A DNA stretch of 23,860 bases, from IMG/VR virus record IMGVR_UViG_3300028045_000098, positions 1 to 23,860 of that record; one strand, 5' to 3'. The notes below the pieces were generated by a model that worked only from the letters and a program-made list of their open reading frames with translations, searched no databases and was not told where the DNA came from. Position numbers and translations under genes: made by a program. Positions 10,495 through 22,769 of this stretch are shown here, one piece after another. This stretch comes from a virus. Within the stretch, counting starts at the first letter, position 1, and each line of letters opens with the position of its first letter.

Positions 10495-10522
10495 AAAAAA
10501 GAGGTGATTTTAATTTATCACC
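10495..10522 (-). terminator. Terminator-like hairpin after the major tail protein gene
   Basis: On the minus strand the stem GGTGAT/ATCACC with an 8-base loop overlaps the stop codon of the major tail protein and is followed by CTCTTTTTT. This looks like a partial terminator that would let most transcripts end after the abundant tube protein and fewer continue into the chaperone and tape measure genes. Confidence 0.5.
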
Positions 10523-11519
10523 ATGGGTTATACAATTGTATAAGGTCGTTAACTACAACTGTTGCAGTCTTAGGCATTATAGTAATTGTTTGTTCTTCAA
10601 CACCATCTCTGGTTGTTGGAGCGTCCATTTCAGTGATTCTACAACCGCTAAAACTCATTAAGCAATCACGACTACCTGCTCCTGCATCTGCTGCAGTAAC
10701 TTCGAATAGTACGTTGAAAGTGCTTCCTCCTCTGAAGTACTCGTCATACAATGTTTTAGTTCTCTCACTAGACGCATCAAGAGTTAAGTCAAGTTGGTAG
10801 TCTCTGTTAGTAGGTATAGGAGTTCCTATATCTCTACTACCGTTAAGGTAGTGTGGTCTTACAAGATTATTACCAGCAGACAAGCTAACGCTTTTTATCT
10901 CGTCATAAACTGTTCCACTAGGTATGTGAACAAGAATATCACTCCATAAGAAAGGTCTTAGTGTAGCTGCTGTTACAGCAGTGCTTGTTCCGCTGCTATA
11001 GTTTACGCTTTGAGCTACATAAGTTAATTCTACTGTTGCTATTTCTCCTTCAGCACAACTAAAAGTCCAATTATCTACGTTGCAACCTACTGCTGTTCTT
11101 ACGAATTCAAAACCGTCTCCTCCAGCGCTAGACTGACTGTCTTCAATAGTGAAGCTTGCGAATGGGTTTTGTGTTCCGCTAGTATAAGCGTAACTGTTAT
11201 CGTTATTTGTTGCTGTGAATGTGTGAATGTATGGGCTTGGGCTTCCACTGTCTACTGTGCTTCCTAGTGTTAGTCCTAAGAATTTCCAGTCTTGTGGGTG
11301 GAATGTTGCTGTTCCTTCGTGGTCTCTTGCTCCGTCTACGAAGATGTCTATGTCTCTGTCTGCTGCTCCTAAGTATCTTAGGTTGTTTACGTTCTCAGTT
11401 GTTGCTATGTTGCTTTCTGTTACTAGTCCAATCCAGTGTCCTGTACCGCTTGTTGCAGCATAGGTACCTGATTCATATTGAAATAGTGTTTTTCCTTGGT
11501 CTCCTACAAATCTTGCCAT
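10518..11519 (-). CDS. Major tail (tube) protein, 333 aa
   Basis: The 333-aa protein begins MARFVGDQGKTLFQYESGTY, a start typical of tail tube proteins, and shows a beta-rich fold with strands such as EIATVELTYVAQSV, DYQLDLTLDASSER and a short helix (TKTLYDEYFRGGSTFNVLFEV) as in the tube-fold domain, closing with EEQTITIMPKTATVVVND. It would polymerise as hexameric rings around the tape measure. Size and the position between tail terminator and chaperone support the call. A good SD (TAGGAGAT) precedes ATG 11519. The extra length relative to about 200 aa tube proteins suggests an inserted surface domain, perhaps residues 90-160. Confidence 0.75.
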   Translation of the reverse strand: MARFVGDQGKTLFQYESGTYAATSGTGHWIGLVTESNIATTENVNNLRYLGAADRDIDIFVDGARDHEGTATFHPQDWKFLGLTLGSTVDSGSPSPYIHTFTATNNDNSYAYTSGTQNPFASFTIEDSQSSAGGDGFEFVRTAVGCNVDNWTFSCAEGEIATVELTYVAQSVNYSSGTSTAVTAATLRPFLWSDILVHIPSGTVYDEIKSVSLSAGNNLVRPHYLNGSRDIGTPIPTNRDYQLDLTLDASSERTKTLYDEYFRGGSTFNVLFEVTAADAGAGSRDCLMSFSGCRITEMDAPTTRDGVEEQTITIMPKTATVVVNDLIQLYNPW

Positions 11520-11547: not shown

Positions 11548-12009
11548 TTATGTTCCTAGGATGTACTTATACTCCACCGTGATAACTCTACTCTTTGGAG
11601 TGTTCTGTCCATCCTCATCTACATTAACCGCGCTAGTAATACCAAAATCAATTAGTGATGCTTTAACTGTTCCATCACTATCGAACTCAATACCTCTAAG
11701 GTGGTTCATTACTTCCTGTGTTAGGAAGTCTTTTTCTTTCTGGTTTCTTGCCCATACTCTTATTTCGATGGGGATTCTTACCATTAATAATTCTGATTGC
11801 ATGCCTAGCTTTTGGCTGTCTATGTTTGTGTTTTGTACGGTGACTATTGGGTACTTGACTAAGCGTTGTGGGTATCCTGTCATGACGAATTTCTCGCCAG
11901 CAGATCTGCTACTGCTTATTGGGTCTGTGATGTTAGAAGATAGAGTGTCTCGTAATTGTATGACTGTGTCGCTGATGAATGTAACTGTGTTTATAGTGCT
12001 TATCGCCAT
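11548..12009 (-). CDS. Tail terminator / tail completion protein, 153 aa
   Basis: The 153-aa protein follows the gp10-like gene and precedes the major tail protein, the usual place of gpU-like tail terminators, which cap the growing tube and join it to the head. The sequence has an N-terminal helix (FISDTVIQLRDTLSSNI), a central strand pair with RLVKYPIVTVQN and SELLMVRIPIEIRVWARN, then a helix FLTQEVMNHLRGIEF and a terminal strand VITVEYKYILG, which matches the mixed alpha/beta fold of that family. The start ATG has an in-frame TAG upstream and no usable alternative. It has no obvious SD and lies about 50 bases below the predicted transcription start of the 12071-12109 promoter, so unlike the other promoters it has a leader, with a hairpin. 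Confidence 0.6.
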   Translation of the reverse strand: MAISTINTVTFISDTVIQLRDTLSSNITDPISSSRSAGEKFVMTGYPQRLVKYPIVTVQNTNIDSQKLGMQSELLMVRIPIEIRVWARNQKEKDFLTQEVMNHLRGIEFDSDGTVKASLIDFGITSAVNVDEDGQNTPKSRVITVEYKYILGT

Positions 12010-12038
12010 TGGTTTTTGTCTCGCTTGACTACTCTAAG

Positions 12039-12056
12039 GACTCATCGCTTTGAGTC
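12039..12056 (-). promoter_or_regulatory. Leader hairpin and micro-ORF before the tail terminator gene
   Basis: GACTCA and TGAGTC form a perfect 6-bp stem with a 6-base loop, almost at the predicted transcription start near 12058. An ATG at 12045 in the hairpin reads Met-Ser-Pro-stop. It may stabilise the RNA end or tune translation. Confidence 0.35.
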
Positions 12057-12070
12057 TTATAGTATTGTAT

Positions 12071-12110
12071 GTAAAGGTATTATTTAAACCACAGTACAGA
12101 TTATATAATC
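12071..12110 (-). promoter_or_regulatory. Late promoter copy 1 (tail unit) with ATTATATAAT palindrome
   Basis: On the minus strand ATTATATAATCTG, seven bases, then GTTTAAATAATACCTTTAC. The TATA box TTTAAATA is at 12081-12088 and predicts a start near 12058. The palindrome GATTATATAATC (12099-12110) is perfect here and overlaps the TGA stop of the gp10-like gene. Confidence 0.7.
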
Positions 12111-12489
12111 ACCTGAATATCTTGGCTAACTGATCAATAAAGAAATTCTCTAACTTCTTACGGTTGCGCTTAAAACTATTACCAAAATGGTGACGAGCAC
12201 TACGATTGCTAGAACCAAACTCAAGTATAGGACCATACTTAACATTACTACTAACTACTGCTTGTGATTTTGTAGAACTACTACTAACACTAGACCTGAA
12301 ACGACCTGTATCAACACTCATAGGTTCAGCTCTTTGACCACTAATACTAGACTTCACCTCTCCCTCAAGGAATAGTCCTGCTTGTGAGAATGCTTTTTGT
12401 GAAGCTTTACTAGAGTTATTGTTTGCTCTTCGTAATTTTCTTAGTAATTCGTTAGCTCCTCTTAATTCTATAGTGAAGCTTTTAGCCAT
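12109..12489 (-). CDS. HK97 gp10-like neck/minor tail protein, 126 aa
   Basis: The pattern is diagnostic: an N-terminal strand and basic helix (IELRGANELLRKLRRAN), a central VDTGRFRSSVS motif, VKYGPILEFGSS, then a C-terminal basic helix (NSFKRNRKKLENFFIDQL). VDTG.LR.S and YA..vEFG with a closing basic helix define the HK97-gp10 family, which joins head and tail at the neck. At 126 aa it has the usual length. Its ATG overlaps the stop of the head-closure gene, and its stop codon overlaps the palindrome of late promoter copy 1, so the boundary between head and tail transcription is very compact. Confidence 0.75.
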   Translation of the reverse strand: MAKSFTIELRGANELLRKLRRANNNSSKASQKAFSQAGLFLEGEVKSSISGQRAEPMSVDTGRFRSSVSSSSTKSQAVVSSNVKYGPILEFGSSNRSARHHFGNSFKRNRKKLENFFIDQLAKIFR

Positions 12490-12914
12490 TACTCACCAAT
12501 AAGCGATCCAGTAGTTAAACGACGAATATACACTTTCTTCACTACAGGAACACCATCCAAGTCCCACTGGTGAACACCTTTAGGCACTAGAGAGTACTCA
12601 GTAAAACCAGTAATAGGACTACCAATACCAACACGCCAAGTACCAGAAGTCTGAATCGATCCAGCCATATACAAAGCTAAGTCAGCACTATCAAGCAGTC
12701 CTTGTTGTACAAGAACAGCATCATTACTACCCTGAGCAGTCTCAATAGGAGCTGTTAAACCACTAACATAAAAATCAGTACCTGACTGCGCATAAGAAAC
12801 ATCACCATCATAAGAAGTGCCAGAATAAGTTATAGTAAAATACCTGAAACGAACTTGAGTGCCGTTGCTAAGAATCTGCTTCAAATCCTTACCCATGCCC
12901 TCGCCTAAACCCAT
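12489..12914 (-). CDS. Putative head-closure / stopper protein, 141 aa
   Basis: The 141-aa beta-rich protein sits between the connector-type genes and the gp10-like gene, where head-closure (gp16 or FII-like) proteins are encoded. The sequence shows a helix (GMGKDLKQILSNG), strands (VRFRYFTITYSG, TDFYVSGL) and a closing segment HQWDLDGVPVVKKVYIRRL, compatible with the small barrel of stopper proteins that prevents DNA leaking before the tail attaches. I do not see a diagnostic motif, so the call rests on size, fold impression and position. A GAGAGG SD lies about 10 bases before ATG 12914. Confidence 0.5.
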   Translation of the reverse strand: MGLGEGMGKDLKQILSNGTQVRFRYFTITYSGTSYDGDVSYAQSGTDFYVSGLTAPIETAQGSNDAVLVQQGLLDSADLALYMAGSIQTSGTWRVGIGSPITGFTEYSLVPKGVHQWDLDGVPVVKKVYIRRLTTGSLIGE

Positions 12915-12917
12915 AAA

Positions 12918-13211
12918 CTAAAGCCTCTCGATTAATTCTTTAAACAATTCCTCAGCAAGTTCATCACGAGAATTATCCTTACTATGAAGACCATTCTTTA
13001 AAGCAAACTTACGCAACTCTTTAAGACTCATACTCATTAAAAAATCAATAGTCACACTAGGAATTTTAGGAACAACAACCGGTTCTCTGAGCTCTCCGCT
13101 AACCATCTTATAAGAACCAGACTCAATAAGAGCACCAGCATCTTTACTGCTAACTTCATATAACCCTTTGACCGCATGCTTACCTATATACTCAATAATT
13201 ACTTTATCCAT
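12918..13211 (-). CDS. Small head-region protein with SAP/HeH-like C-terminus, 97 aa
   Basis: Residues 1-40 (IIEYIGKHAVKGLYEVSSKD, then ALIESGSYKMV) look like the small domain found in many short phage head proteins encoded between capsid and connector genes. Residues 59-97 (MSMSLKELRKFALKNGLHSK, DELAEELFKEL) match the helix-extended-helix layout of SAP, HeH or Rho-N-like motifs that bind nucleic acid. A role in the capsid, at the DNA or at the connector, is possible but not known. It has clean junctions with both neighbours and no membrane or signal segment. Confidence 0.6.
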   Translation of the reverse strand: MDKVIIEYIGKHAVKGLYEVSSKDAGALIESGSYKMVSGELREPVVVPKIPSVTIDFLMSMSLKELRKFALKNGLHSKDNSRDELAEELFKELIERL

Positions 13212-13212
13212 A

Positions 13213-13596
13213 CTAACCTAACACCCTTTTAAATCTTATAACGCTTCCCAATCTTTTAAGCTTAAGCATTCCACTCTTATGAAACGACTGACTAGCTGTA
13301 AGAACATTACTCCCCTCTCCCTTTTTTATGCTTAGTGGACCTAAGCTAGCGCTGTTATAATCTCCACCTTGTAATTGCATATTAGCAAGAAGCTCAGCAG
13401 TAGACAAATCAACTAGAGCAGGCTGGTACTTCTCAGCAATAGCAACACTACCAATAGTGAAACCACCATACTCTTCCATAAACAACCTTTGCTCATCAAC
13501 AATCTGAATAAGTTCAGCACCGCTAATCGATGTAGGTATGTCATCTACTCTATTCTGAATCCTCGTCGCTATAGATCCCAGCGAAGCCACGACCAT
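13213..13596 (-). CDS. Head-tail connector (gp6/gp15-like adaptor), 127 aa
   Basis: The first 80 residues are helical (SIATRIQNRVDDI, AELIQIVDEQRLFMEEY, ALVDLSTAELLANMQL), matching the helical bundle of gp6- or gp15-type adaptors that form a ring under the portal. A Gly/Ser loop (GGDYNSASLGPLSIKKGEGS) and a basic C-terminal segment follow, as in proteins that insert an arm into the neighbouring subunit. Position directly before the small SAP-like and stopper genes supports it. No catalytic motif is present. Confidence 0.6.
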   Translation of the reverse strand: MVVASLGSIATRIQNRVDDIPTSISGAELIQIVDEQRLFMEEYGGFTIGSVAIAEKYQPALVDLSTAELLANMQLQGGDYNSASLGPLSIKKGEGSNVLTASQSFHKSGMLKLKRLGSVIRFKRVLG

Positions 13597-13597
13597 T

Positions 13598-13972
13598 TTA
13601 TCTGTACCTTACCGTAACTTCAAAAGGAGCAGCACCACTAAGTATAGCCTTAGTATTCAACACTATGTGTTCATTACTCACGTACTTATCAGGTCTAGCT
13701 CCAGCAGCAACACTAATAGATCCAGTACTTAACTGAGTAAGTACTCTAGGATAAAAATGCTGAGTAGTAGCACCACTAGCAGCATCAGTACGCCAAAACT
13801 CAGTACCATTACTAGTAGTTAAAAAAGCACTACCAACACCTTGACTTCCATAAATTAAATCAACCTCTAAGATCTCCCCGTTAACAGGCTGAGAACTCAC
13901 GAAACTACCAGTACTAGAAGCACTGATGGTCTCACTAAATCTATATTCTTTAATACGATTACTTCGAACCAT
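13598..13972 (-). CDS. Small beta-rich structural protein, 124 aa
   Basis: I do not recognise a named family. The 124-aa protein has a short basic start (MVRSNRIKEYRF) and then alternating polar and hydrophobic strands, for example NGEILEVDLIYGSQGVGSAF and NEHIVLNTKAIL, ending PFEVTVRYR. The pattern suggests a beta sandwich. It is the last of six small beta-rich proteins encoded between the capsid cassette and the connector genes, linked by one-base to four-base overlaps. A virion surface (decoration or head fibre) role is inferred from position. Confidence 0.55.
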   Translation of the reverse strand: MVRSNRIKEYRFSETISASSTGSFVSSQPVNGEILEVDLIYGSQGVGSAFLTTSNGTEFWRTDAASGATTQHFYPRVLTQLSTGSISVAAGARPDKYVSNEHIVLNTKAILSGAAPFEVTVRYR

Positions 13973-14316
13973 TATTTATTCCTCCATACATTATAATTTG
14001 GGCCGGTAGCTTTTAGGAAACCGGCACTTGAATTTATTACACCATCGTTACTCTCTTTAACGATTACTAATTTTGCTCCTTTCCAGAACAACCATCCTCC
14101 GCGAAATGCGTGACTGAAAGTAGTTTGTGGTTGAACGCTAGCTATAATCACTTGACGTTCACCATCAGTAGCTATAACAGTAGCCATTCCATCACTCAAG
14201 TTACTTACTAAAAGATCAACTAAGATAAAGTCAGAACGAATAAGCTCAACACTACCCTCAAAAGTAGATTGAACCATACGAACACTAGTCCTAGATAATA
14301 GTATATCGTTACTCAT
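13972..14316 (-). CDS. Small beta-rich structural protein, 114 aa
   Basis: The 114-aa protein is beta-rich with strands FILVDLLVSNLSDGMATVIA and ERQVIIASVQP and the string FRGGWLFWKGAKLVIVKES, which places an aromatic-rich turn before a hydrophobic strand. Its spacing resembles the 142-aa neighbour (DLFVITDIIADAD). Start and stop overlap the neighbours (TAATG). It is probably a virion protein, with the same uncertainty as its neighbours. No Cys, signal or membrane segment is present. Confidence 0.55.
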   Translation of the reverse strand: MSNDILLSRTSVRMVQSTFEGSVELIRSDFILVDLLVSNLSDGMATVIATDGERQVIIASVQPQTTFSHAFRGGWLFWKGAKLVIVKESNDGVINSSAGFLKATGPNYNVWRNK

Positions 14317-14741
14317 GATGAAATGTAATACCCCGCAATAGTCATACTAATATTATTATCATTAGTCTTAGCATTAACAAAACGACCAACAGTACTAACA
14401 ATAAAATTAAGACCAGTAAGTATCTTACTAGTATTCTTAAGCATCTCAAACTGAATTATAGTCTTACTAACAGTAGCTATGTCTGCGTCTTCAGCTTCAT
14501 AAACAATAACCGTAGCTCCATTAGCTCCAACGCCCTTGTCAGCATCAGCAATAATATCAGTAATCACAAACAAATCACTATTAATAGGTTCAAAAAACGT
14601 GTAACCTTGATTATTAACAGCTAATCTAGTGAACACAGGAGTGCTATAACTAAGAGGAGCAGTAACTAACTGACCATTACTAGTAACAATAGCTTTAGTA
14701 CCCTTACCTTCTCCATCGACAATAACTCCCTTAAGACTCAT
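14313..14741 (-). CDS. DGxGxG-type virion protein, 142 aa
   Basis: The N-terminus GVIVDGEGKGTKAIVTSNGQ shares the pattern hydrophobic-x-D/N-G-x-G-x-G followed by an alternating strand and N/G-Q/R-L with the two upstream genes. After it comes a jelly-roll-like body (DLFVITDIIADADKGVGAN, ATVIVYEAEDAD, NISMTIAGYYIS). Such modules occur in phage head-fibre or decoration proteins. The three genes lie in tandem and probably arose by duplication. I infer exposed virion proteins that bind the capsid by the shared N-terminus. A tail location is possible but less consistent with gene order. Confidence 0.6.
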   Translation of the reverse strand: MSLKGVIVDGEGKGTKAIVTSNGQLVTAPLSYSTPVFTRLAVNNQGYTFFEPINSDLFVITDIIADADKGVGANGATVIVYEAEDADIATVSKTIIQFEMLKNTSKILTGLNFIVSTVGRFVNAKTNDNNISMTIAGYYISS

Positions 14742-15289
14742 TACTCTGCCTCTGCAATACTAATCACTCCAGTAAGGTTAGCAGTTCCAGTCTCAATAAG
14801 AACTCCTATAGCCTTACCTTTAGGAATAATTATGTTACTAGTAGTCGATAAATGATACAACGTATCAGCAACAGGACAATTCATAAAAAATATAGTCCCA
14901 GAACTAGTCAAACCAGTAATATTAGTTCCACTTTCTATAGTAGCGGAGGGCGTTTCATTGCTACCAAGATTTCTAACAATAGGAGTTATACTACTACCAC
15001 CACTAGCTGTTCCAGTAACAGAATTAATTTGTATCTGTGTTGCTGCACTAGATGCAAAACGAAAATCAGTAATATTCAAGTTCTTACTTCCAGTATTCTT
15101 AATATACACTACGTAATCATTATTACCAGTAGGATTCAGTGCCGTGAAAGGAACACTCCATAATTTACCATTGGCTGTGTTAATATGTTTATCTTCAGTT
15201 TCAGTAATAGCAAAAGTTCTAGCTCTTCCCTCACTATCAATTTCTAGAGTGTTACCGTCTCCACGTCCGTTTTCAATTACAAATCCCAT
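14741..15289 (-). CDS. DGxGxG-type virion protein, 182 aa
   Basis: The shared N-terminal motif is IENGRGDGNTLEIDSEGRA, followed by FAITETEDKHINTANGKLWS. The body contains VVYIKNTGSKNLNITDFRFA, closely parallel to LYLKNNEDQPLNITAIIVG in the next upstream gene, which supports common descent of the two bodies and not only of their N-termini. Strands end with a KGKAIGVLIETGTANLTGVI segment. It is likely a beta-sandwich decoration or head fibre protein. One Cys is present. The stop overlaps the next start. Confidence 0.6.
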   Translation of the reverse strand: MGFVIENGRGDGNTLEIDSEGRARTFAITETEDKHINTANGKLWSVPFTALNPTGNNDYVVYIKNTGSKNLNITDFRFASSAATQIQINSVTGTASGGSSITPIVRNLGSNETPSATIESGTNITGLTSSGTIFFMNCPVADTLYHLSTTSNIIIPKGKAIGVLIETGTANLTGVISIAEAE

Positions 15290-15885
15290 TATTCTTTAGC
15301 ATCCTCCAAGTGACAAATCAGCGCAATATAACAAGGCAGAGCAGTGTTATTTTCAGGAGGTTCTATAGCTATGCCAATAGTACTTCCCTTAGGAAGAATC
15401 CCGTCAATACTAGCGGACAACCTTCCAAAATCATCTTGGAAAATAAATAAGTGATCAGTACCACCAGTCATAGTAACTCCAGTACCTCCTTTGTAAGCGT
15501 CAACATCAAGGTTTTTACTGTCTCCAAAATTCCTGTTACTATTAATATCTACTGCTGAAGCTGTACTGATTATATCCCCTCCATTAGGGTTTCTCTCTAC
15601 TGTTATTCTTGCAATATCAGTGGTAGTTCCGTTAGTGCTTGTTCCTAGTCCTACTATTATTGCTGTTATGTTTAAAGGTTGATCTTCATTATTCTTCAAG
15701 TATAAGACTGGAGTTTTAGAATCGTTAGTTAATGATAGTTCTCCAGTGTTAATGTTGTAACTGTTTCCTATTTTTGTTGCTTGTAGGTCTTCGTCAATGA
15801 CTACTCCGTTAACGTATAGTCTGTTATTTTCGTTAACTTTTGCTTGACTCCCTGTTCCAGTTCCGTCTTTTATTGTGTTAGCCAT
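15289..15885 (-). CDS. DGxGxG-type virion protein, 198 aa
   Basis: This is the longest of the three related proteins. The N-terminus IKDGTGTGSQAKVNENNRLY carries the shared motif, and the body has LSLTNDSKTPVLYLKNNEDQ and PLNITAIIVGLG, parallel to the 182-aa neighbour, then GILPKGSTIGIAIEPPENN near the end, which matches the neighbour's PKGKAIGVLIETG. A virion surface role is inferred. GGAGG lies about 16 bases before ATG 15885, a long but possible SD distance. Third-position bases shift from A/C-rich in the first half to T-rich in the second. Confidence 0.6.
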   Translation of the reverse strand: MANTIKDGTGTGSQAKVNENNRLYVNGVVIDEDLQATKIGNSYNINTGELSLTNDSKTPVLYLKNNEDQPLNITAIIVGLGTSTNGTTTDIARITVERNPNGGDIISTASAVDINSNRNFGDSKNLDVDAYKGGTGVTMTGGTDHLFIFQDDFGRLSASIDGILPKGSTIGIAIEPPENNTALPCYIALICHLEDAKE

Positions 15886-15896
15886 AGATTGTTTTT

Positions 15897-16190
15897 TTAG
15901 TCCTCCAGTATGTCTCTGTTTTCGACGTTTTCGTCTGTTATTTTGCTTAAGTGAATGTTAGTTTTTAGTAGTTCGTAATGAATTCCTTCTAGTAGTTCTC
16001 TTACTGTTGGGTCTGTTGTGAATAGTGAGTTTCCGTCGTCTACTCCTATGAAACTTTCTTCTCCTGTGCTTGATGTTCCTGTTAGTTTGGTGCTTGTGTC
16101 TAGGTAGAATTTTGTTCCGCTTGTTGTTATTGTAACTTCGTTTAGAATGCTTGTTTTGCTTCCTGTGTTGTATCCTTGTATTTCAGGCAT
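15897..16190 (-). CDS. Small structural protein, 97 aa, beta N-terminus and helical C-terminus
   Basis: Residues 1-45 are beta-like (LNEVTITTSGTKFYLDTSTK), and residues 62-97 form a charged helix (VRELLEGIHYELLKTNIHLS). This is the layout of small virion proteins that trimerise through a C-terminal helix. It is the first gene after the structured intergenic region and probably starts the transcription unit of head-surface genes. AAGGA lies about 9 bases upstream of the ATG, so an SD is available. A palindrome overlaps positions -18 to -33. Function is otherwise unknown. Confidence 0.55.
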   Translation of the reverse strand: MPEIQGYNTGSKTSILNEVTITTSGTKFYLDTSTKLTGTSSTGEESFIGVDDGNSLFTTDPTVRELLEGIHYELLKTNIHLSKITDENVENRDILED

Positions 16191-16207
16191 TTTGTTGTTT
16201 CCTTATC

Positions 16208-16223
16208 CACGATAAGTATCGTG
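16208..16223. promoter_or_regulatory. Palindrome CACGATA-AG-TATCGTG upstream of the 97-aa gene
   Basis: Seven-base arms with a 2-base spacer lie 18-33 bases upstream of ATG 16190. If the mRNA is leaderless the palindrome would cover the TATA position (GATACTTA); if it is leadered it is a hairpin in the 5' leader. Confidence 0.45.
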
Positions 16224-16248
16224 TGCTCTTCGGCGTAATTACTATCAG

Positions 16249-16275
16249 TTACTATTAATTGTTGTTTAATAGTAA
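16249..16275. repeat. Inverted repeat TTACTATTAA / TTAATAGTAA
   Basis: Perfect 10-bp arms are separated by 7 bases in an AT-rich gene-free stretch. The partial repeat TTACTAT occurs again just to the left (16238-16244). Confidence 0.65.
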
Positions 16276-16282
16276 TTAACAG

Positions 16283-16299
16283 TAAATAATCGTTATTTA
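16283..16299. repeat. Inverted repeat TAAATAA-TCG-TTATTTA
   Basis: Perfect 7-bp arms with a 3-base spacer form a third dyad in the same intergenic region, between the terminator and the previous dyad. Confidence 0.55.
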
Positions 16300-16316
16300 T
16301 TATCGTTAAAAGATAT

Positions 16317-16345
16317 AAAAAAAATAAAAAAAAGGTATCTCTACC
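16317..16345 (-). terminator. Terminator after the capsid cassette (GGTA-GAGA-TACC plus T8AT8)
   Basis: On the minus strand, directly after the stop of the 103-aa gene, a 4-bp stem closed by a GNRA-type loop (GAGA) is followed by eight T, one A and eight T. Archaeal terminators rely mainly on such T runs. It would end the abundant capsid transcript. TTTATATC right after the T runs (16312-16319) may be the TATA box of the next unit. Confidence 0.65.
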
Positions 16346-16348
16346 TAA

Positions 16349-16660
16349 TTATAAGTTACCAGTACCAATAGCAGTATAGCTATAGTCAAGACCAGACTGT
16401 CCAAGGAAGGTAAAACTTCCAGCAGCAGCACCAGTTACAGCACCAGGATGACTAGCAGCAGCGCCACTAACAGCCAAAGTAACATTAACTTTAGGAGCTG
16501 CAGAAAAAGCAGTTCCAAAGCTAGCCGTAACAGCAACATTACTTGCTTGAACAGTTCCTGTCTGAATACTAAGGTCAAAACTAGTAGGGCTTCCAGTACC
16601 AATGATACCTTCAGAGAAAGCCTTTACTTGTTCTAATCCGTTTCCTAGTCCATCAGCCAT
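16349..16660 (-). CDS. Small beta-rich virion protein with lectin/fibre-like strand motif, 103 aa
   Basis: Ala/Gly/Thr-rich, 103 aa. The core ASFGTAFSAAPKVNVTLAVS resembles the strand pattern of lectin-like or fibre-tip domains of phages (F-x-x-x-F-x-x-x-P-x-V), followed by a Gly/Ala loop and SFTFLGQSGLDYSYTAIGTG. It follows the major capsid gene with only two bases between, and a terminator ends the unit after it, so it is probably made in capsid-like amounts. A head-decoration or head-fibre role fits. Not a known family to me. Confidence 0.6.
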   Translation of the reverse strand: MADGLGNGLEQVKAFSEGIIGTGSPTSFDLSIQTGTVQASNVAVTASFGTAFSAAPKVNVTLAVSGAAASHPGAVTGAAAGSFTFLGQSGLDYSYTAIGTGNL

Positions 16661-16662
16661 AA

Positions 16663-17520
16663 CTAACTACTCGTAATCTTTGCGATGGCTTCAGCACGTA
16701 ACTGACGTACTTTTAGTCTTTGAGTAACACTTACTGCACTCATGTCGTTGCTTGGAAGTTCAAAACCTTCAACGGTCATTGCTCTCTTCTCTGCGATGAC
16801 GTAAGCTTGTGTGTTATCAAATACGTAACTTGAAGTTGTAGTCATACCAGCGTTTGTACTAACAAGTAATACATTCATACCGTAAAGTGTTCCTAAGAAT
16901 CCTCTTTGTAGCATGTCTGTGTTACCTACTTTGTTAGCTTCAACAAAAGTATCAATATTTTGCAAGTCGTTTAGTACTTCGTTTCCAATAGCGTATGTAG
17001 TTGGAGTGTAGTCCTCATCTCTAAGGTGTTGTATTGCTCGAGTAATGTTTGCAATAGTTACAGTAGCTCCACCAGCAACGGTATTAGCTGCTTGATCAAG
17101 AGCGTCACTGATTACAAGACTGTTCTCGTTCTCAGCAAGTCTCTTACCAGCTAAACGTACGTTCATATCTAGTAAATTCCATTTAGCGTCTTCTAACATT
17201 TCACGAGTGATACGTAGACCAACAGCGAACTTAACAGGTTTCATGTTGAAACTTGTGTATTCTTCCTGATCAATAGTAATGTTAGCTCCTTCAGCCGTTT
17301 GTCTAACAGCCATGCTGTTAGGTGTTGCAAGATCAATATCAATGCTGCTTCCTGGGATATCACTAGGACCATAAAATAAAGCTGCTTCCGATCGAGGAAT
17401 TAGAACTTTCTCTACTTCCTGAACAAGAGTGTCAGCAATCTTTCTAGGTATAAGTAATTGTCCCTCAGTACCTAAAGCAGTACTAAGAAGTTCTCTTACG
17501 TTTGGTAAAATAGTTGTCAT
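16663..17520 (-). CDS. Major capsid protein, HK97 fold, 285 aa
   Basis: The order protease, decoration protein, this gene, and the 285-aa length fit an HK97-fold major capsid protein. The sequence shows an N-terminal arm, an E-loop-like strand (SIDIDLATPNSMAV to ANITIDQEEYTSF), an P-domain with the spine helix (ITREMLEDAKWNLLDMNVRL and AGKRLAENENSLVIS), an A-domain with TYAIGNEVLNDLQNIDTF and LLVSTNAGM, and a closing strand pair VEGFELPSND to VSVTQRLKVRQLRAEAIAKI. It forms hexamers and pentamers of the icosahedral head. No long N-terminal delta domain is present, so scaffolding probably comes from the nested scaffold product of the protease gene. Confidence 0.85.
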   Translation of the reverse strand: MTTILPNVRELLSTALGTEGQLLIPRKIADTLVQEVEKVLIPRSEAALFYGPSDIPGSSIDIDLATPNSMAVRQTAEGANITIDQEEYTSFNMKPVKFAVGLRITREMLEDAKWNLLDMNVRLAGKRLAENENSLVISDALDQAANTVAGGATVTIANITRAIQHLRDEDYTPTTYAIGNEVLNDLQNIDTFVEANKVGNTDMLQRGFLGTLYGMNVLLVSTNAGMTTTSSYVFDNTQAYVIAEKRAMTVEGFELPSNDMSAVSVTQRLKVRQLRAEAIAKITSS

Positions 17521-17522
17521 AA

Positions 17523-17945
17523 TTAGGACCTTCCGATTTGTACTAAAACAAATCCTTCACTGCCTGCGCTACAAAGACTTCTGCCGATAGCTCTACCATC
17601 AACAACACTCTCAATAACTGCATCTCCGCCGTTAACACCAACATTTCTACTAGCTTCAATAGTTCCTGCAGCCGTGATTAGGAAAATTCCTTCGGTTGCG
17701 ATAGCCACTTCTAAGCCACTAGTTACAGTTGATAAAGCTACACCAGCAAAGTTAACTCCGCTAGCTCCAGCTGCTGCTTCAATATCTCCGAAAACAAAAC
17801 TGTTTGCTCCGCTTGAAACAACTCCTGCTGCTCCACTAAGGAAACATAACTGACCACCAGAGATGGTGCCACGTGCCTTAGCAGTAATAATTTTAGGACA
17901 GCCAAAATCTTCTAAGAAGACTGCTCCTGCTGTATTTAGTACCAT
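17523..17945 (-). CDS. Capsid decoration/stabilisation protein (DUF2190-like), 140 aa
   Basis: The small Gly/Ala/Val-rich protein consists of many short strands (ARGTISGGQLCFLSGAAGVV, NFAGVALSTVTSGLEVAIAT, GIFLITAAG, ASRNVGVNGGDAVI), as in the capsid-cement or DUF2190-type proteins that bind capsomer junctions after expansion. It is encoded immediately upstream of the major capsid gene and its ATG overlaps the protease stop. Three Cys are present. The assignment rests on composition, length and position. Confidence 0.65.
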   Translation of the reverse strand: MVLNTAGAVFLEDFGCPKIITAKARGTISGGQLCFLSGAAGVVSSGANSFVFGDIEAAAGASGVNFAGVALSTVTSGLEVAIATEGIFLITAAGTIEASRNVGVNGGDAVIESVVDGRAIGRSLCSAGSEGFVLVQIGRS

Positions 17946-18280
17946 TATTGGTTCCTCCCTTTAAGTCTAGAACTACCAGCTCTAGTACTCATATCAATAC
18001 TTAGAGCGTAACCCTTACCTGCTTCTGCAGTAGATAAAGTGTAACCTTCTAAGTCGTTAGTTTTAGTCTCTTCAATAGATACTTCGCTAACTGTTTTATC
18101 CTCCATTACTGGAGTTTCTGCAACTTTCTCAGCTACAGCTTTTGCTTCTTCCATACTTAACTTCTCTGCTTTAAGAGCTTCTAGCTTCATACTCTCGATC
18201 TCGAGTAGTAGTGCTTCTTTCTCAGAGCGGATAGTTTCTAGAGCGGAATTAGCTTCCTGAATTTTAATTTCTTCAGCCAT
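17945..18280 (-). CDS. Nested scaffold protein from internal start in the protease gene, 111 aa
   Basis: An ATG at 18280 (Met187 of the protease) has a strong SD, GGAGG at 18289-18293, with 8 bases spacing. The resulting 111-aa product is the Glu/Lys-rich coiled-coil C-terminus of the protease gene and ends at the same stop. This mirrors lambda gpC/Nu3, where the scaffold is made from an internal start. It would line the inside of the procapsid and be degraded by the protease. Because the full gene starts leaderless and this one has a strong SD, the scaffold could be made in excess. The start is read directly from the sequence; its use is inference. Confidence 0.6.
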   Translation of the reverse strand: MAEEIKIQEANSALETIRSEKEALLLEIESMKLEALKAEKLSMEEAKAVAEKVAETPVMEDKTVSEVSIEETKTNDLEGYTLSTAEAGKGYALSIDMSTRAGSSRLKGRNQ

Positions 18281-18838
18281 TTTCTTATCCTCCGATACTT
18301 TTTCTGAAACAATACTTTCTTGTATTGCTTGTGAATTTTTGTTATTATAAGATTCCATACATGCTTTGCTGAATCCAGCGTTACTGTCTGCTGGTACAGC
18401 GACTAAGGAAAGTTCTACGAAGTCAATTCCCATTGCTTCTACTCCGCCGCCTTGCTCTTCAGTACGTTGCTTTAGTTCTGAAACCATAGCTCCTATACTT
18501 ACTGCGCTTACTAGTCCTTGATCAATTTTCTCCTGCATTACAGGGTCCATTATGATTCCTTCGAACATTACTGCGTTGTTTTCTGCGCTGAAGAATGCGT
18601 TAGTTGTCTTTCCTACTATGCTTTCTACGCTGTTGATGTGATCTTTTAGTATTGGTTTGTTGGATAAACTAGCTGCTCCTTTGCTTAGTTCTTCTTTGCT
18701 ATAGAATACACCGTTTCTGGTGGTTGTTTCGTTGATTGCTCTTCCTCTTATAATGAATGATGAGCTTCCGTCTTCTTTAACAGTTCTTGAACTTTCAGTT
18801 ATTGGGACGCTGTAAGAAATATTGTGAATAGTATCCAT
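17945..18838 (-). CDS. Prohead maturation protease fused to scaffold, 297 aa
   Basis: Residues 20-155 match the HK97-type prohead protease (S78): FIIRGRAINETTTRNGVFYS, His67 in LKDHINS, Ser114 in SAVSIGAM, and FVELSLVAVPAD, the conserved ELS-hydrophobic-VP string. It cleaves scaffold and capsid arms inside the procapsid. Residues 165-250 are a Glu/Lys/Ala-rich coiled coil, the scaffold part. The ATG at 18838 has no SD but lies 23-30 bases from the TATA box TTTAAATA (18861-18868), so the mRNA is predicted leaderless. The promoter element ends at the stop codon of the upstream zinc-finger gene. It heads the capsid transcription unit. Confidence 0.85.
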   Translation of the reverse strand: MDTIHNISYSVPITESSRTVKEDGSSSFIIRGRAINETTTRNGVFYSKEELSKGAASLSNKPILKDHINSVESIVGKTTNAFFSAENNAVMFEGIIMDPVMQEKIDQGLVSAVSIGAMVSELKQRTEEQGGGVEAMGIDFVELSLVAVPADSNAGFSKACMESYNNKNSQAIQESIVSEKVSEDKKMAEEIKIQEANSALETIRSEKEALLLEIESMKLEALKAEKLSMEEAKAVAEKVAETPVMEDKTVSEVSIEETKTNDLEGYTLSTAEAGKGYALSIDMSTRAGSSRLKGRNQ

Positions 18839-18850
18839 ACTGTATAGTAT

Positions 18851-18890
18851 GTAAAGGTATTATTTAAACGAGAGTTCAGATTATATAATT
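18851..18890 (-). promoter_or_regulatory. Late promoter copy 2 (capsid unit) with ATTATATAAT palindrome
   Basis: Same layout as copy 1: ATTATATAATCTG, seven bases, GTTTAAATAATACCTTTAC on the minus strand. TTTAAATA is at -23 to -30 from the protease ATG, and the palindrome is at about -41 to -52, overlapping the TAA of the upstream gene. Confidence 0.75.
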
Positions 18891-19207
18891 TAATTACTTC
18901 TTTCTTTAGTTAAGTCTTTGAAAACAATACGGCGCCTTGTACGGTGAGTGCTTTTTCTATTGCCTCTTGAAGTTACTGAACTGAATCGTTGACCCATTAC
19001 TCCGGCTGTAGTTCCTTGTAATTCGTTAACTACTCCTTCAAATGAGTTAGTAGGTCCTCCACCGCTTCCAGTGTAATCGCTCCATTCTCCTACTACCACT
19101 ACGTCTTCGAAGTCTATTGCTTCATCGCCATTAGTGCACACGTGTAATATATCGTTATTTCCTATTGCTGAGGCGAAACGTTGATCGCATTGAGAACACC
19201 AAAACAC
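18890..19207 (-). CDS. Small zinc-finger protein with basic tail, 105 aa
   Basis: The start codon is GTG (19207), one base inside the TAG of the preceding gene (TAGTG). The N-terminus FWCSQCDQRFASAIGN followed by LHVC has a Cys-x2-Cys and a His-x-Cys that could hold one zinc ion. Acidic and Gly-rich stretches follow (residues 28-75), and the C-terminus is strongly basic (NRKSTHRTRRRIVF), suited to binding DNA or RNA. Similar small zinc proteins occur between portal and protease genes of some tailed viruses. It may help packaging or portal assembly. Unknown function. Confidence 0.65.
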   Translation of the reverse strand: MFWCSQCDQRFASAIGNNDILHVCTNGDEAIDFEDVVVVGEWSDYTGSGGGPTNSFEGVVNELQGTTAGVMGQRFSSVTSRGNRKSTHRTRRRIVFKDLTKERSN

Positions 19208-19374
19208 TAGAATAACTCCAAAAGTAATTTCTTTGCTGCTCCTTTAGTAGCTTTATTGTACTTAATAGTGCAAGTTCCACAGAGTACTAGTCCGTGTAAT
19301 AGTACGAATCCAGGTTCTTTATCGCACTTGGCACAAACAGGACCCTTAACAATAGTAGAATCAATCTTCATCAT
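19207..19374 (-). CDS. Zinc-ribbon microprotein, 55 aa
   Basis: Translation from ATG 19374 gives 55 aa ending at TAG 19207-19209. It contains PVCAKCDKE and, 15 residues on, LCGTCTIKY: two Cys-x2-Cys knuckles, the classic zinc ribbon. A Lys-rich helix closes it (KATKGAAKKLLLELF). It overlaps the portal stop as ATGA and shares TAGTG with the following zinc-finger gene, so three genes are chained by overlaps. A second ATG at 19371 would shorten it by one residue. The protein is too short for many gene finders. A nucleic-acid or protein-binding role is likely; which one is unknown. Confidence 0.75.
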   Translation of the reverse strand: MMKIDSTIVKGPVCAKCDKEPGFVLLHGLVLCGTCTIKYNKATKGAAKKLLLELF

Positions 19375-21332
19375 ATACCCTCAAGATCTGTTATTGGAAC
19401 AACAGTGCACCTACACATATTATGTGCTGGCGGCATAGTGCTCAAACTCTCACTAAGTATAGCGCCACTCTCTGACACATCAAAAACTACTCCATTAAGA
19501 GCTTCACAAATAGGACATGTACGATCAGACATAGTAGCAAGCCACCTATACTGAGTAACTCCACCAGTCTTGTAATTGTTCATAGCTCCTTTGTTAGCTA
19601 AACGAATAGTCTCAGTACGAGCAATATTAATGCTACGACTTCTTGCTCTTGCCGCTAGTATCTTATCACCATTAGCGTTCAATACTAGCTTACCATCTTT
19701 AGTTCTGAATAAATCACGTACTCTTGCGTCTTCTTCAATACGTCTAGCAATATCATTAATTGATCCGCCAGTACCGAACTCTTCGCTAAGTATACGTTTA
19801 AGTTTAATAATTTGTTTCTCTTGTAATCTACCAGCTAGTATCTCGTCATCAGTACTAGCCATTAAGCTTGAGAAATCGTCTTTCTCAATCTGTTGTAGTA
19901 TGTCTCTTAGGTATTCTTCGTAATTGAATCCTATCCATTCTTTCAAGTCGGCAGCGCTCAACTCTTCTAAATGTGTTAGTGATTGTGTGTCTTCACACAC
20001 ATGAGTACTTGTTTTCTCTTCTTCCCTACTATTACTTCCAGGTACTAATGGTTGAGGTTGTTCCTCTTCCCTTTCCCTTTCTTCATCATCGTCAAGTACT
20101 TCATCAGGATCAAAACCCAACAAAGTAGCTAGCTCTCTTTCTAATGCGTGACGCATACTCATACTTAGGAACGCGTTTTGTAACAAACCAGTAACAGTAG
20201 TGATTCTAGAGTTAGTCTCAGCGTTGCTTGGCATTCCCCAATCTAACTCAACGTGAACATCCAAACCATTACCCTGAAGTACTCTGCGGAATATTTTATT
20301 CTCAATAACCTTCTCAAGCTCAACCTGAATAGAATTAATACGTCTCTCGAAAGCGTCCATCTGAACTTGAGCAAGTCCTTCAGGTATACTACCACGACCA
20401 AGAAGTACTTCTGGTACTTGGTAACCAAAAACTAGCATGTCAATATCGTGCTTTAGTAAGGTCTCAAACTTATCCCCTATGTTACCAAAATCAACAGTTG
20501 ATAAAGAGACACCAGCACCTACAGCGAACTCAGTCTTATCCTTCAAAGTCTGAAGAAGATTTCCTACGCTCTCAATCTCAGCAGAACTAGCAGGAGTTCC
20601 CTCATTATCACCAAGAGTAGCAATAAGAGGAACATTAGCCTTACGCTTCATCAACACATGCAAGCTTTTCTCAGCACCAATCAATGAATCAAGAACTCTA
20701 AATGTTGGGCTTATGATACCATAACCATAAGGGTTATCTCCAGTAGTATTCAAACTAATGTGAGCTATTTGAAATGGCTTAAAACTAATCTTCTTAGTCT
20801 TAGACAACCTAGACTTACTACCTATTACTTGGTTGTACTCCTCGATCATGCCAGACTTATCGCGCTTGATAAACATATTAGTAGCGTTAATAACCTTAAC
20901 ACCTTGAGGTGGTTCGTTAACACTACCTCCTAATTCCATGTAACCAGTTCCTTTAATCAAAGCTTCCTTCAACCATTTTCTTACTAATGAATTGAAGTTA
21001 ACGTCTTGCATCCATTGATCTATTATCGCTTTAGCTCTTTCATCATCACTCTTAGTGTGAAATCCAGGTCCTATTACGAAGTCTACGTATTTTGTTACTA
21101 CTCCGCTGACTATTGGTACGTGTAAGAATAATTGTTCTGCTGCTTCTAGATCGAATGGGTGGGCTTCTCCAACATCTTTTGAGAATCCTACTTGATCGGA
21201 CTTAGTTACTTCGCTTTTTAGTGATTCTAAAATGTTTAGTTTAGGTGAAGAAATAGAGTATTTAGAATTGTTATTAGTAGTAGTTTGTTGAACAGTTGTT
21301 TTCCTGTTAAGAATGTTGGAGAATATGCCCAT
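19371..21332 (-). CDS. Portal protein fused to MuF-like head morphogenesis domain, 653 aa
   Basis: The first 400 residues or so form a portal: EQLFLHVPIVSGVVTKYVDF, WLKEALIKGTGYMELGG, PFQIAHISLNTTGDNPYGYG, then the wing and stem. A linker rich in Glu, Arg and Gln (about 415-450, DDDEEREREEEQPQ) joins a C-terminal MuF-type domain with IARTETIRLANKGAMNNYK, YRWLATMSDRTCPICEALNG (Cys606, Cys609) and PPAHNMCRC (His637, Cys640, Cys642), the usual metal-binding end. Portal and MuF are commonly separate genes, so this is a fusion. The portal ring carries DNA in and out of the head; MuF proteins can sit in the capsid and be ejected. The ATG is 24-31 bases from the TATA box of promoter copy 3. Confidence 0.85.
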   Translation of the reverse strand: MGIFSNILNRKTTVQQTTTNNNSKYSISSPKLNILESLKSEVTKSDQVGFSKDVGEAHPFDLEAAEQLFLHVPIVSGVVTKYVDFVIGPGFHTKSDDERAKAIIDQWMQDVNFNSLVRKWLKEALIKGTGYMELGGSVNEPPQGVKVINATNMFIKRDKSGMIEEYNQVIGSKSRLSKTKKISFKPFQIAHISLNTTGDNPYGYGIISPTFRVLDSLIGAEKSLHVLMKRKANVPLIATLGDNEGTPASSAEIESVGNLLQTLKDKTEFAVGAGVSLSTVDFGNIGDKFETLLKHDIDMLVFGYQVPEVLLGRGSIPEGLAQVQMDAFERRINSIQVELEKVIENKIFRRVLQGNGLDVHVELDWGMPSNAETNSRITTVTGLLQNAFLSMSMRHALERELATLLGFDPDEVLDDDEEREREEEQPQPLVPGSNSREEEKTSTHVCEDTQSLTHLEELSAADLKEWIGFNYEEYLRDILQQIEKDDFSSLMASTDDEILAGRLQEKQIIKLKRILSEEFGTGGSINDIARRIEEDARVRDLFRTKDGKLVLNANGDKILAARARSRSINIARTETIRLANKGAMNNYKTGGVTQYRWLATMSDRTCPICEALNGVVFDVSESGAILSESLSTMPPAHNMCRCTVVPITDLEGI

Positions 21333-21345
21333 TAGTGTTGTAGTA

Positions 21346-21385
21346 GTGAAGGTATTATTTAAACGATAGGACAGATTATATAATT
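21346..21385 (-). promoter_or_regulatory. Late promoter copy 3 (portal unit) with ATTATATAAT palindrome
   Basis: ATTATATAATCTG, seven bases, then GTTTAAATAATACCTTCAC on the minus strand, one base different from copies 1 and 2. TTTAAATA lies at -24 to -31 from ATG 21332. The palindrome overlaps the TAA stop of the large terminase gene. Confidence 0.75.
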
Positions 21386-22769
21386 ATCCTGCTATGAAGT
21401 AACCAGCCCTACCAGCACTCCAAGTAAGATACACAAGAGCATCAACATGATTAGGAGATTTAGAAGGATCAATAATCTTAACTTTGCCACTGCTAGTATG
21501 CTCCCACCTCATACTAATCAATTCTTTTATTAGCGTAGGATCATCAGGAATACTAATCAATCCCTCATCAAACAACTTCTTCAAACGCCACATCTTCTCA
21601 GCCTTCATATTAGCAAAAAGAGTTGGCTTGCTAGACTTCTTACCATAATGGCAAGCATTAACCTTACAAGATCTTGGAGCCCCCTCATTAACCATACTAA
21701 GTACTCCAGTGCCAACACCAATAGGATCTATATTGATAACAGTAGCCAAATGTTTCTCACGCATACTAAGCAATCTACCAGCTATCTTAGTGTTCTCACT
21801 CTTTGATTCACTGAATATCTCTCGAACAAGGTAGTGTGTTTTGTAACGCCAACCCATCATAATACAAGTCCAATCAGCTCCTTTGTCAGCAGGATCGCAG
21901 CTTAGTATAACGTCGTCTTTCCTCTTGAAATCAGAGAACTTATTTATCGCTTCCTTAATCTTAGCGTAACTAATTAGTTGGTCTTCAGCTTCTTGAGGGA
22001 ACTCAGAGTCATAGAGTACTGTGAACTGCATAGTAGTAAGTTCTTCACGCATTTCATCAACAAAGTCTTCAGTTATACGTCCTTCTTCAACACCAACTTG
22101 CCATGGTACGTGTATAGTGTGATAGTTTGGGTTGACCCAGTGATCGTAATACTTGTTGTTCATATTCCAGGGATTACTTAAATCAACTAGAACAGAGCTG
22201 TCCGAACTGTCTCCAAGCATCCGCGCTATCCTACTGCTTGCTTCTTCACTAATTAGCGCTGCCTCGTCTCTTATTACTAGGTCAGCTCCAAATCCCATTA
22301 GCCTGTTTGCTTCACCCTCAGCAGATAGCGTACGTAGTTCGCATCCGTTCTTGAAGGTAATACGCTTACGACTTACCTCTCTCTTCAATCTCTCTACTCC
22401 ACCGCTTTTTTCGAAGTCAACAAGATCACTAAGTATCTTACTAGAAGTCATTAGTTCAGCTATGTAGTTTCTTATGATGTTTGCTTGAGCTTCCTTAGGA
22501 CCAATCAAGGCTACCTTCTTCTTAGGATTTAGTAGAACATAAATGCACACTCCTAATGCTACGCATTGAGTCTTACCGTATCTAGTGTAGCAGTTGATAG
22601 CAACACGCCTATGCTCAGAGAAGGCAATAATCCTAACTATATCTTGCTGAGTAGGAGTTAGATTGCAAGCTGGATCGTTGTTAGGAAACAACCACTTGCA
22701 TAGTACTTTGACATTCTTTTGTTTGAGAACTTTCTTTAGTATAGTTCTCTGCTCATCATTCATCACCAT
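21384..22769 (-). CDS. terL: Terminase large subunit, 461 aa
   Basis: This is the packaging motor. The ATPase part has an atypical Walker A, CYTRYGKT (residues 60-67), a Walker B LVIRDEA with Asp168 and Glu169, and a likely coupling motif VLVDLSNPW. The nuclease part has the RNase H-like acidic residues at ILSCDPADKGADW (Asp292), VINIDPIGVGTG (Asp348) and NHVDALVYLTW (Asp443). The enzyme translocates DNA through the portal and cuts it into genome lengths. It overlaps the small terminase by 14 bases; an alternative start at ATG 22763 overlaps the small terminase stop. 461 aa is a normal length. Confidence 0.9.
   Translation of the reverse strand: MVMNDEQRTILKKVLKQKNVKVLCKWLFPNNDPACNLTPTQQDIVRIIAFSEHRRVAINCYTRYGKTQCVALGVCIYVLLNPKKKVALIGPKEAQANIIRNYIAELMTSSKILSDLVDFEKSGGVERLKREVSRKRITFKNGCELRTLSAEGEANRLMGFGADLVIRDEAALISEEASSRIARMLGDSSDSSVLVDLSNPWNMNNKYYDHWVNPNYHTIHVPWQVGVEEGRITEDFVDEMREELTTMQFTVLYDSEFPQEAEDQLISYAKIKEAINKFSDFKRKDDVILSCDPADKGADWTCIMMGWRYKTHYLVREIFSESKSENTKIAGRLLSMREKHLATVINIDPIGVGTGVLSMVNEGAPRSCKVNACHYGKKSSKPTLFANMKAEKMWRLKKLFDEGLISIPDDPTLIKELISMRWEHTSSGKVKIIDPSKSPNHVDALVYLTWSAGRAGYFIAG

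Follow-up and report, generated by a model that had tools for sequence, protein, structure and literature searches.

Late operons and repeated promoter elements

The analyzed DNA (the window) is the whole 23,860-nucleotide stretch of the virus record IMGVR_UViG_3300028045_000098, a tailed-virus fragment. All features described here lie on the minus strand. The terminase large subunit is encoded at 21384-22769 (phrog_2, 8e-25; PF03237, 2.5e-11). It is followed by a portal fused to a Mu F-like minor head domain (19371-21332; phrog_9232, 1e-27; PF04233, 7e-13). The first gene of the capsid unit (17945-18838) matches PHROG major head/head maturation protease families (phrog_617, 2e-11; phrog_80, 4e-8), and the HK97-type major capsid protein is encoded at 16663-17520 (PF05065, 4e-9). 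Next come a neck/tail completion protein (12109-12489; phrog_5, 2.6e-17), a putative tail terminator (11548-12009) and a tail tube protein (10518-11519; phrog_290, 3e-18; PF18906, 6e-13). The assignment of the tail terminator rests on a weak match to phrog_176 (0.047) and on its conserved position and family in relatives.

Three copies of a 39-bp element precede the portal, protease/capsid and tail genes. An exact match search confirmed the three copies described in the earlier note, with 0, 0 and 1 mismatches, whereas dinucleotide shuffles gave 0 matches. The portal copy (21346-21384) consists of the palindrome ATTATATAAT at 21375-21384 and the TATA box TTTAAATA at 21356-21363. In the protease/capsid copy (18851-18889), the palindrome lies at 18880-18889 and the TATA box at 18861-18868. 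In the tail copy (12071-12109), they lie at 12100-12109 and 12081-12088, respectively. The TATA box starts 31 nt before the portal ATG at 21332, 30 nt before the protease ATG at 18838 and 79 nt before the ATG of the tail unit. The first two values are those of archaeal leaderless promoters. The earlier note had described the seven spacer bases as variable, but the spacers TACTGTG, AACTCTC and TCCTATC vary at only 4 of 7 positions, as compared to 1 of 32 outside (Fisher p=0.002). The note had also placed the palindrome over the preceding stop codon each time; it overlaps the stop codon by one base in two copies and abuts it in the third. The spacer is where a BRE would lie, but it contains no A-rich BRE, although relatives often have one.

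A fourth exact ATTATATAAT, missed in the earlier note, was found inside a perfect 14-bp palindrome, TGATTATATAATCA, at 766-779. About 0.07 exact 10-mers are expected in the window and 4 are seen. This palindrome lies between the TATA-like TTTTATAC (784-791) and the ATG (761) of a gene coding for a 66-aa protein (561-761), which is a repressor-like position. The 66-aa protein is weakly AbrB/MazE-like (GDSYGITIPK motif) and is a candidate regulator. The match to PF04014 was below the cut-off (E=0.24), and no NCBIfam match was found. An hhalign comparison gave E=0.033 over 14 columns, blastp gave E=1e-5 to an AbrB-like viral protein, and phmmer gave 3.5e-5 to a protein of the virus in the metagenome-assembled genome (MAG) G191. 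A search of viral contigs for homologs gave none, and PF04014 was not found in the records of the first six relatives. A phmmer search against PDB returned only designed repeat proteins and a ribosomal protein, which we do not consider meaningful. The single-sequence AF2 model was too poor to be used in a search (pLDDT 56).

The palindrome and TATA box in related viruses

To determine whether the element is private to this virus, we searched related sequences. An exact scan of IMG/VR for the 13-N-12 element gave no hits, so the full element was found only in the window. Looser and clade-based searches, however, showed that dozens of related uncultured viruses share the design. In a relative with 49% TerL identity, G001 (L004/L014), the palindrome and TATA box are at the same three junctions at an offset of about 21. 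The portal and protease/capsid counterparts are at 11345 and 16584 in L004, and the tail counterpart is at 11108 in L014. In a major-capsid clade, exact ATTATATAAT occurs in 15/57 capsid and 17/60 tail upstream regions, against 1.1% of random windows. Perfect palindromes at -27 to -18 from the TATA box numbered 27, as compared to 0 in a control interval. The variants ACTATATAGT, ATTACGTAAT and AGTATATACT keep the dyad, and one virus, L167, has ATTACGTAAT in both its copies. The TATA-to-ATG distance is about 30 nt at most capsid-unit promoters of the relatives. In the viral contig of MAG G191, TCATTATATAATGA lies at offset 21 at four promoters, two of which are divergent and share one palindrome. 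In the other 59 genomes searched, the ATTATATAAT-TATA pair occurs at most once per genome.

More distant relatives repeat other distal boxes at this place. Within-virus similarity exceeds between-virus similarity in 45 viruses (p=1e-12) and in 33 viruses (p=1e-4). In other relatives, within-virus conservation starts sharply at -21 from the TATA box, and this edge persists when the stop codon is away from it. Some relatives (L023, L071 and others) keep the TATA box but have a different repeated distal box; the palindrome is replaced there, not simply lost. The spacing is 21, 23 or 25 across viruses, rather than one fixed value. The motif TTATG-N6-CATAA at portal promoters of a subclade was considered as the same site, but it is a different sequence. 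The box TAATGCTCAACCNTAAAAA of a relative is absent from 279 genomes of the same phylum bar one hit with 1 mismatch, in genome G115, which is not at an evident promoter. The TerL hits in genomes G186, G115 and G262 gave no portal/protease pair to test.

Hairpins in the tail leader

Following the tail promoter led us to an RNA element in the tail leader. Hairpin 1 (12039-12056; GACUCA-AAGCGA-UGAGUC) starts at the predicted transcript start (about 12058). Its distance from the TATA box is 32, and the clade median is 28. Hairpin 2 (12018-12029; GUC-AAGCGA-GAC) lies 9-20 nt before the ATG at 12009. In relatives, the latter is usually CC-AAGCGA-GG with an SD-like GAGG. One or two hairpins with the same AAGCGA-type loop were found in 52/62 tail leaders, with strong covariation (0.85 vs 0.19 shuffled). 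In total, 90.6% of cells were paired, as compared to 55% in shuffled data, and the loop types are concerted within a virus. The structure was revealed only by the alignment, as a single-sequence fold of the window leader gave z=-1.0. No Rfam family matched above the gathering score in the window leader or in 8 relatives, nor was the element found in the papers searched. It may add a post-transcriptional layer to the control of tail genes.

A possible late switch and its alternatives

These data suggest that the three copies are late promoters of an archaeal tailed virus, each with a site for a bound factor. We estimate the probability of this reading, which also covers the hairpins, at about 0.7. 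The two-part interpretation of the earlier note, a core promoter plus a bound factor driving portal, capsid and tail units, is supported by the relatives. The TATA box would serve host TBP/TFB and is placed so that the portal and capsid transcripts would start at their ATG. The 10-bp dyad-symmetric site, starting 21 bp upstream and about two helical turns from the TATA box, would bind a dimeric protein, most likely virus-encoded, which would recruit or stabilise TBP/TFB and switch on the three operons together. The palindrome between the TATA box and the ATG of the 66-aa gene would let the same protein repress that gene. The roughly 50-nt leader of the tail transcript, with a hairpin at the predicted 5' end and another just before the ATG, would most simply allow a loop-binding factor to adjust tail translation or mRNA stability. 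Promoter activity, activation, the translational role and the identity of the factors are inferred. Neither the AbrB-like 66-aa protein nor the wHTH of other viruses is more than a candidate, and the host of the window is inferred from relatives, which occur in Nanoarchaeota-phylum (DPANN) genome bins. We consider it about as likely as not that a clade of uncultured archaeal tailed viruses runs a two-layer late switch, in which a viral dimer reads a palindrome 21-25 bp upstream of TATA at the portal, capsid and tail promoters, and a second, loop-specific RNA-binding factor reads the paired same-loop hairpins at the 5' end of the tail mRNA. The palindrome, its variants and the hairpins offer short, defined targets for finding such factors, as well as markers for calling late operons in metagenomes.

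Other explanations were considered. The palindrome could be a repressor operator that holds the late genes off. The 766-779 copy is in a typical repressor position, and most well-characterised archaeal viral regulators act by repression (PMC5569661). At the late promoters, however, it lies upstream of TATA/BRE and leaves the core promoter free, and the copies of the G191 virus are at the same upstream position of divergent non-structural genes, so we find this reading unlikely. Somewhat less likely still are tandem core promoters, in which ATTATATAAT is itself a TATA box, each unit has two start sites about 21 bp apart, and no regulator is needed. Indeed, TTATATAA resembles archaeal TATA boxes, and both elements are AT-rich in the major-capsid clade. 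On the other hand, the distal box at the same place in other relatives is not TATA-like (ATGTACAGTTAA, TTAATGCTCAACC, ATTGCAAT), no conservation is seen upstream of -21 where its BRE would be, changes keep the dyad (including ATTACGTAAT), and divergent promoters share one palindrome.

A host-type extended promoter, read by a host factor and borrowed by the virus, is improbable. Archaeal viruses do rely on host RNA polymerase and TBP/TFB, but the box differs from virus to virus, TAATGCTCAACCNTAAAAA is absent from the 279 genomes of the host phylum bar one hit with 1 mismatch, and the four ATTATATAAT-TATA pairs of G191 are all on a viral contig. Recent duplication or gene conversion, with no special function for the palindrome, is the least probable. 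Although the 29-bp blocks are identical in some relatives (L023, L034, L073), the spacer of the window varies far more than its flanks, and the palindrome persists between viruses with 49% identical TerL and across the major-capsid clade.

The closest precedent is that of the class I/II intergenic repeats of halovirus HF2 (Russ et al. 2021, PMC8707807). They are near-identical, contain TATA boxes, sit at operon starts and are conserved in position among related viruses. The class II copies lie in the late morphogenesis region, and a virus-encoded regulator was proposed. Their sequence and host are different, and neither a conserved palindrome at a fixed distance upstream of TATA, in the parts of that work consulted, nor a hairpin leader is described. 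The HF2 repeats work in uninfected cells without viral factors, and BRE changes did not matter there, so conservation alone does not prove a viral activator. In SIRV2 and related viruses (PMC11065993), several genes of one virus share a promoter core plus flanking regulatory sequence, and the flanks differ from virus to virus. Those are early anti-defence genes of hyperthermophile viruses with a strong BRE, whereas here there are late structural operons with a weak BRE and a palindromic distal site. AvtR represses its own gene and activates another, and C68 is a small AbrB-like protein that binds near its own gene (PMC5569661), which matches the logic proposed for the 766-779 copy. AvtR, however, is an RHH protein thought to oligomerise over about 100 nt, in contrast to the single 10-bp dyads of the window. 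The tail-leader hairpins appear to share with RNA operators bound by viral proteins, such as the MS2 coat-protein hairpin, a short hairpin with a constant loop just before the start codon of a structural gene. They differ in that two hairpins carry the same loop, the first at the predicted 5' end of the transcript, in a DNA virus with an inferred archaeal host.

Architecture of the late promoter-like sites

The earlier note described three near-identical 39-bp late promoters on the minus strand at positions 12071-12109, 18851-18889 and 21346-21384. An exact search confirmed all three copies at these positions, with 0, 0 and 1 mismatches, whereas shuffled sequence gave none. The note treated the seven bases between the two conserved blocks as fully variable. 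We found that the spacer (TACTGTG/AACTCTC/TCCTATC) varies at 4 of 7 positions against 1 of 32 in the rest (Fisher p=0.002), so the two flanks look held by selection rather than by recent copying. The note also stated that the palindrome overlaps the stop codon of the preceding gene each time. In fact, it overlaps the stop codon by one base in two copies (12109 and 21384) and abuts it in the other (18889). A fourth exact ATTATATAAT, in a perfect 14-bp palindrome, was found at 766-779. The expected number of exact 10-mers in the window is about 0.07.

Reading on the minus strand of this 23.9-kb virus record, the gene order is terminase, portal-MuF, a 105-aa ORF, the protease/capsid-unit gene, HK97 major capsid, neck, putative tail terminator and tail tube. 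The portal and the Mu F-like minor head domain are fused in one protein (19371-21332). The promoters open the portal, capsid and tail blocks, and the distance from the first TATA base to the ATG is 31, 30 and 79 nt, respectively. At the gene coding for a 66-aa protein, the TATA-like box is also located 30 nt before the ATG, and the palindrome lies between them.

Conservation of the sites in related viruses

One 35.8-kb record (loci L004/L014), with a TerL 49% identical, has ATTATATAAT followed by a TATA box at about offset 21 at the same three junctions (11345, 16584 and L014 11108). Its only other exact copy lies inside a coding region. By eye, without a family search, three adjacent genes of this viral genome (L004:5383-7207) look like a ubiquitin-like protein, a JAB/MPN peptidase and an E1/ThiF-like enzyme. 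In the next step, scans with the tail tube and the major capsid protein were performed, which gave about 85 non-redundant loci. Exact ATTATATAAT occurs upstream of 15/57 protease and 17/60 tail-terminator genes, against 1.1% of random windows from the same loci, and TATA follows at mostly 21, 23 or 25 bp. Perfect 10-bp palindromes lie at -27..-18 from TATA in 27 cases among 86 promoters and never in a control interval. Six of these are dyad-keeping variants, i.e., ACTATATAGT (3), ATTACGTAAT (2) and AGTATATACT (1), and a further three (TATAATTATA) are a shifted AT palindrome. One virus of the set (L167) carries ATTACGTAAT in both its copies. In the loci L190/L191, two ATTATATAAT palindromes (4240 and 4261) lie 21 bp apart upstream of one TATA box.

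To determine whether promoter sharing extends to the wider group, we compared the portal-upstream and protease-upstream sequences of 45 TerL relatives. Sequences of one virus are more alike than those of different viruses (mean 23.7 vs 19.3 of 32; 23 exceed the between-virus 95% point; p=1e-12). Anchored on TATA, within-virus identity in the 23 best rises abruptly at -21 and stays high to +7. These viruses were chosen for similarity, so the edge, not the height, is the informative part; the edge remains when the stop codon is 8 nt or more away. The distal box differs between viruses: ATGTACAGTTAA was found in L023 at the same three junctions, TTAATGCTCAACC in L071, L073, L054 and others, and ATTGCAAT in L061. 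The TTAATGCTCAACC-type box is absent from 279 genomes of the host phylum, bar one 1-mismatch hit. A different palindrome, TTATG-N6-CATAA, is located directly upstream of BRE/TATA at the portal promoter of a subclade, just after TerL (L039, L041, L046, L049, L054, L071, L072 and L074). A second test, in which protease promoters were compared with tail promoters in 33 capsid-clade viruses, agrees with the first (p=1e-4).

Probable host and candidate factors

TerL relatives occur in bins named Woesearchaeota, Nanoarchaeota and Bathycorpusculum, and in one Syntrophomonadaceae bin. The contig in the Syntrophomonadaceae MAG (L076, PWMM01000035.1) has TATA-type late promoters and portal/tail genes related to these archaeal viruses, and is possibly misbinned. 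In a bin of the same phylum as the Woesearchaeota one (G191), one contig encodes the MCP of the capsid clade (E=4e-126) and a TerL, and another, 61 kb and viral, has tail genes with the RNA element described below. On that second contig, TCATTATATAATGA sits exactly 21 bp from TATA at four promoters. Two divergent promoters share one palindrome (59021-59068), and one of them drives a wHTH protein. The divergent viral promoters sharing one palindrome TCATTATATAATGA are L226:19021-19068 and L226:14064-14092 (G191 C11), and the winged-helix protein has 92 aa (L226:19128-19406). QueE/QueD-like genes, recognized by eye in the G191 viral contig (L225:9257-10669), suggest 7-deazaguanine DNA or tRNA modification. 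The host of the window is probably an archaeon of this kind, as inferred from these relatives.

The 66-aa protein contains the AbrB-like GDSYGITIPK motif but fails the Pfam cut-off (E=0.24), and profile comparison is weak (E=0.033). It has a relative in the G191 virus (phmmer 3.5e-5) and resembles a second small protein there (blastp 1e-5) that itself matches the AbrB profile better (6.5e-4). Its own promoter bears the longest copy of the palindrome. This makes it the first candidate in the window, although only a tentative one, and the early genes are not in this fragment. Small winged-helix proteins are encoded upstream of TerL in about a dozen relatives (L018, L028, L033, L036, L037, L042, L043, L045, L046, L065, L069, L071 and L078) and are alternative candidates for the late regulator.

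RNA hairpins in the tail leader and interpretation

While following the promoter copy at 12071-12109, we found that the tail leader (12018-12056, minus strand) has two hairpins, GACUCA-AAGCGA-UGAGUC and GUC-AAGCGA-GAC. Of 62 non-redundant tail leaders, 52 have at least one such hairpin and 39 have two. Tandem hairpins with the same AAGCGA-type loop were noted in tail leaders of loci L107-L210. Stems formed with a virus's own arms average 8.2 bp, against 1.3 with arms swapped between viruses, and 33 different 5′ arms occur. On 37 aligned leaders, 90.6% of cells pair (55.0% shuffled, 0/500), with 126 double changes (37.7 shuffled) and covariation of 0.848 (0.192 shuffled), and slid structures reach at most 0.135. 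The shuffle control does not remove relatedness, but the slid control keeps it and the arms are diverse. The leaders in the alignment were picked for having the hairpins, which inflates the paired fraction but not the variety of pairs. RNAalifold finds the same two helices unaided. The model finds further copies that were not used to build it, some of them before other genes (L111:5084, L128:1206, L142:2909, L171:9280 and L208:6774). The loop type is usually shared by both hairpins of a virus: we counted 45 AAGCGA/AAGCGA, 7 AAGTGA/AAGTGA, 4 AAACGA/AAACGA, 3 AATGCGA/AATGCGA and 6 mixed pairs, some loci being duplicates. Hairpin 1 begins a median 28 nt after the first TATA base (IQR 26-29), at the predicted transcript start. 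A search of Rfam with the leader of the window and those of several relatives gave no match.

These data show a set of late promoter-like sites with a dyad site at a defined distance upstream of TATA, and a conserved RNA structure in the tail leader. From them we infer a dimeric, probably viral, activator, repression at the fourth site (766-779), and a loop-binding factor for the tail message. The example of HF2 (PMC8707807) warns that such promoters can fire without viral factors. Virus-specific shared promoters are already known (PMC8707807, PMC11065993), as is a dual activator/repressor, AvtR (PMC5569661). Compared with these, what is new here is the late, dyad-centred architecture in this virus group, its clade-wide extent with dyad-keeping variants, and the RNA element.
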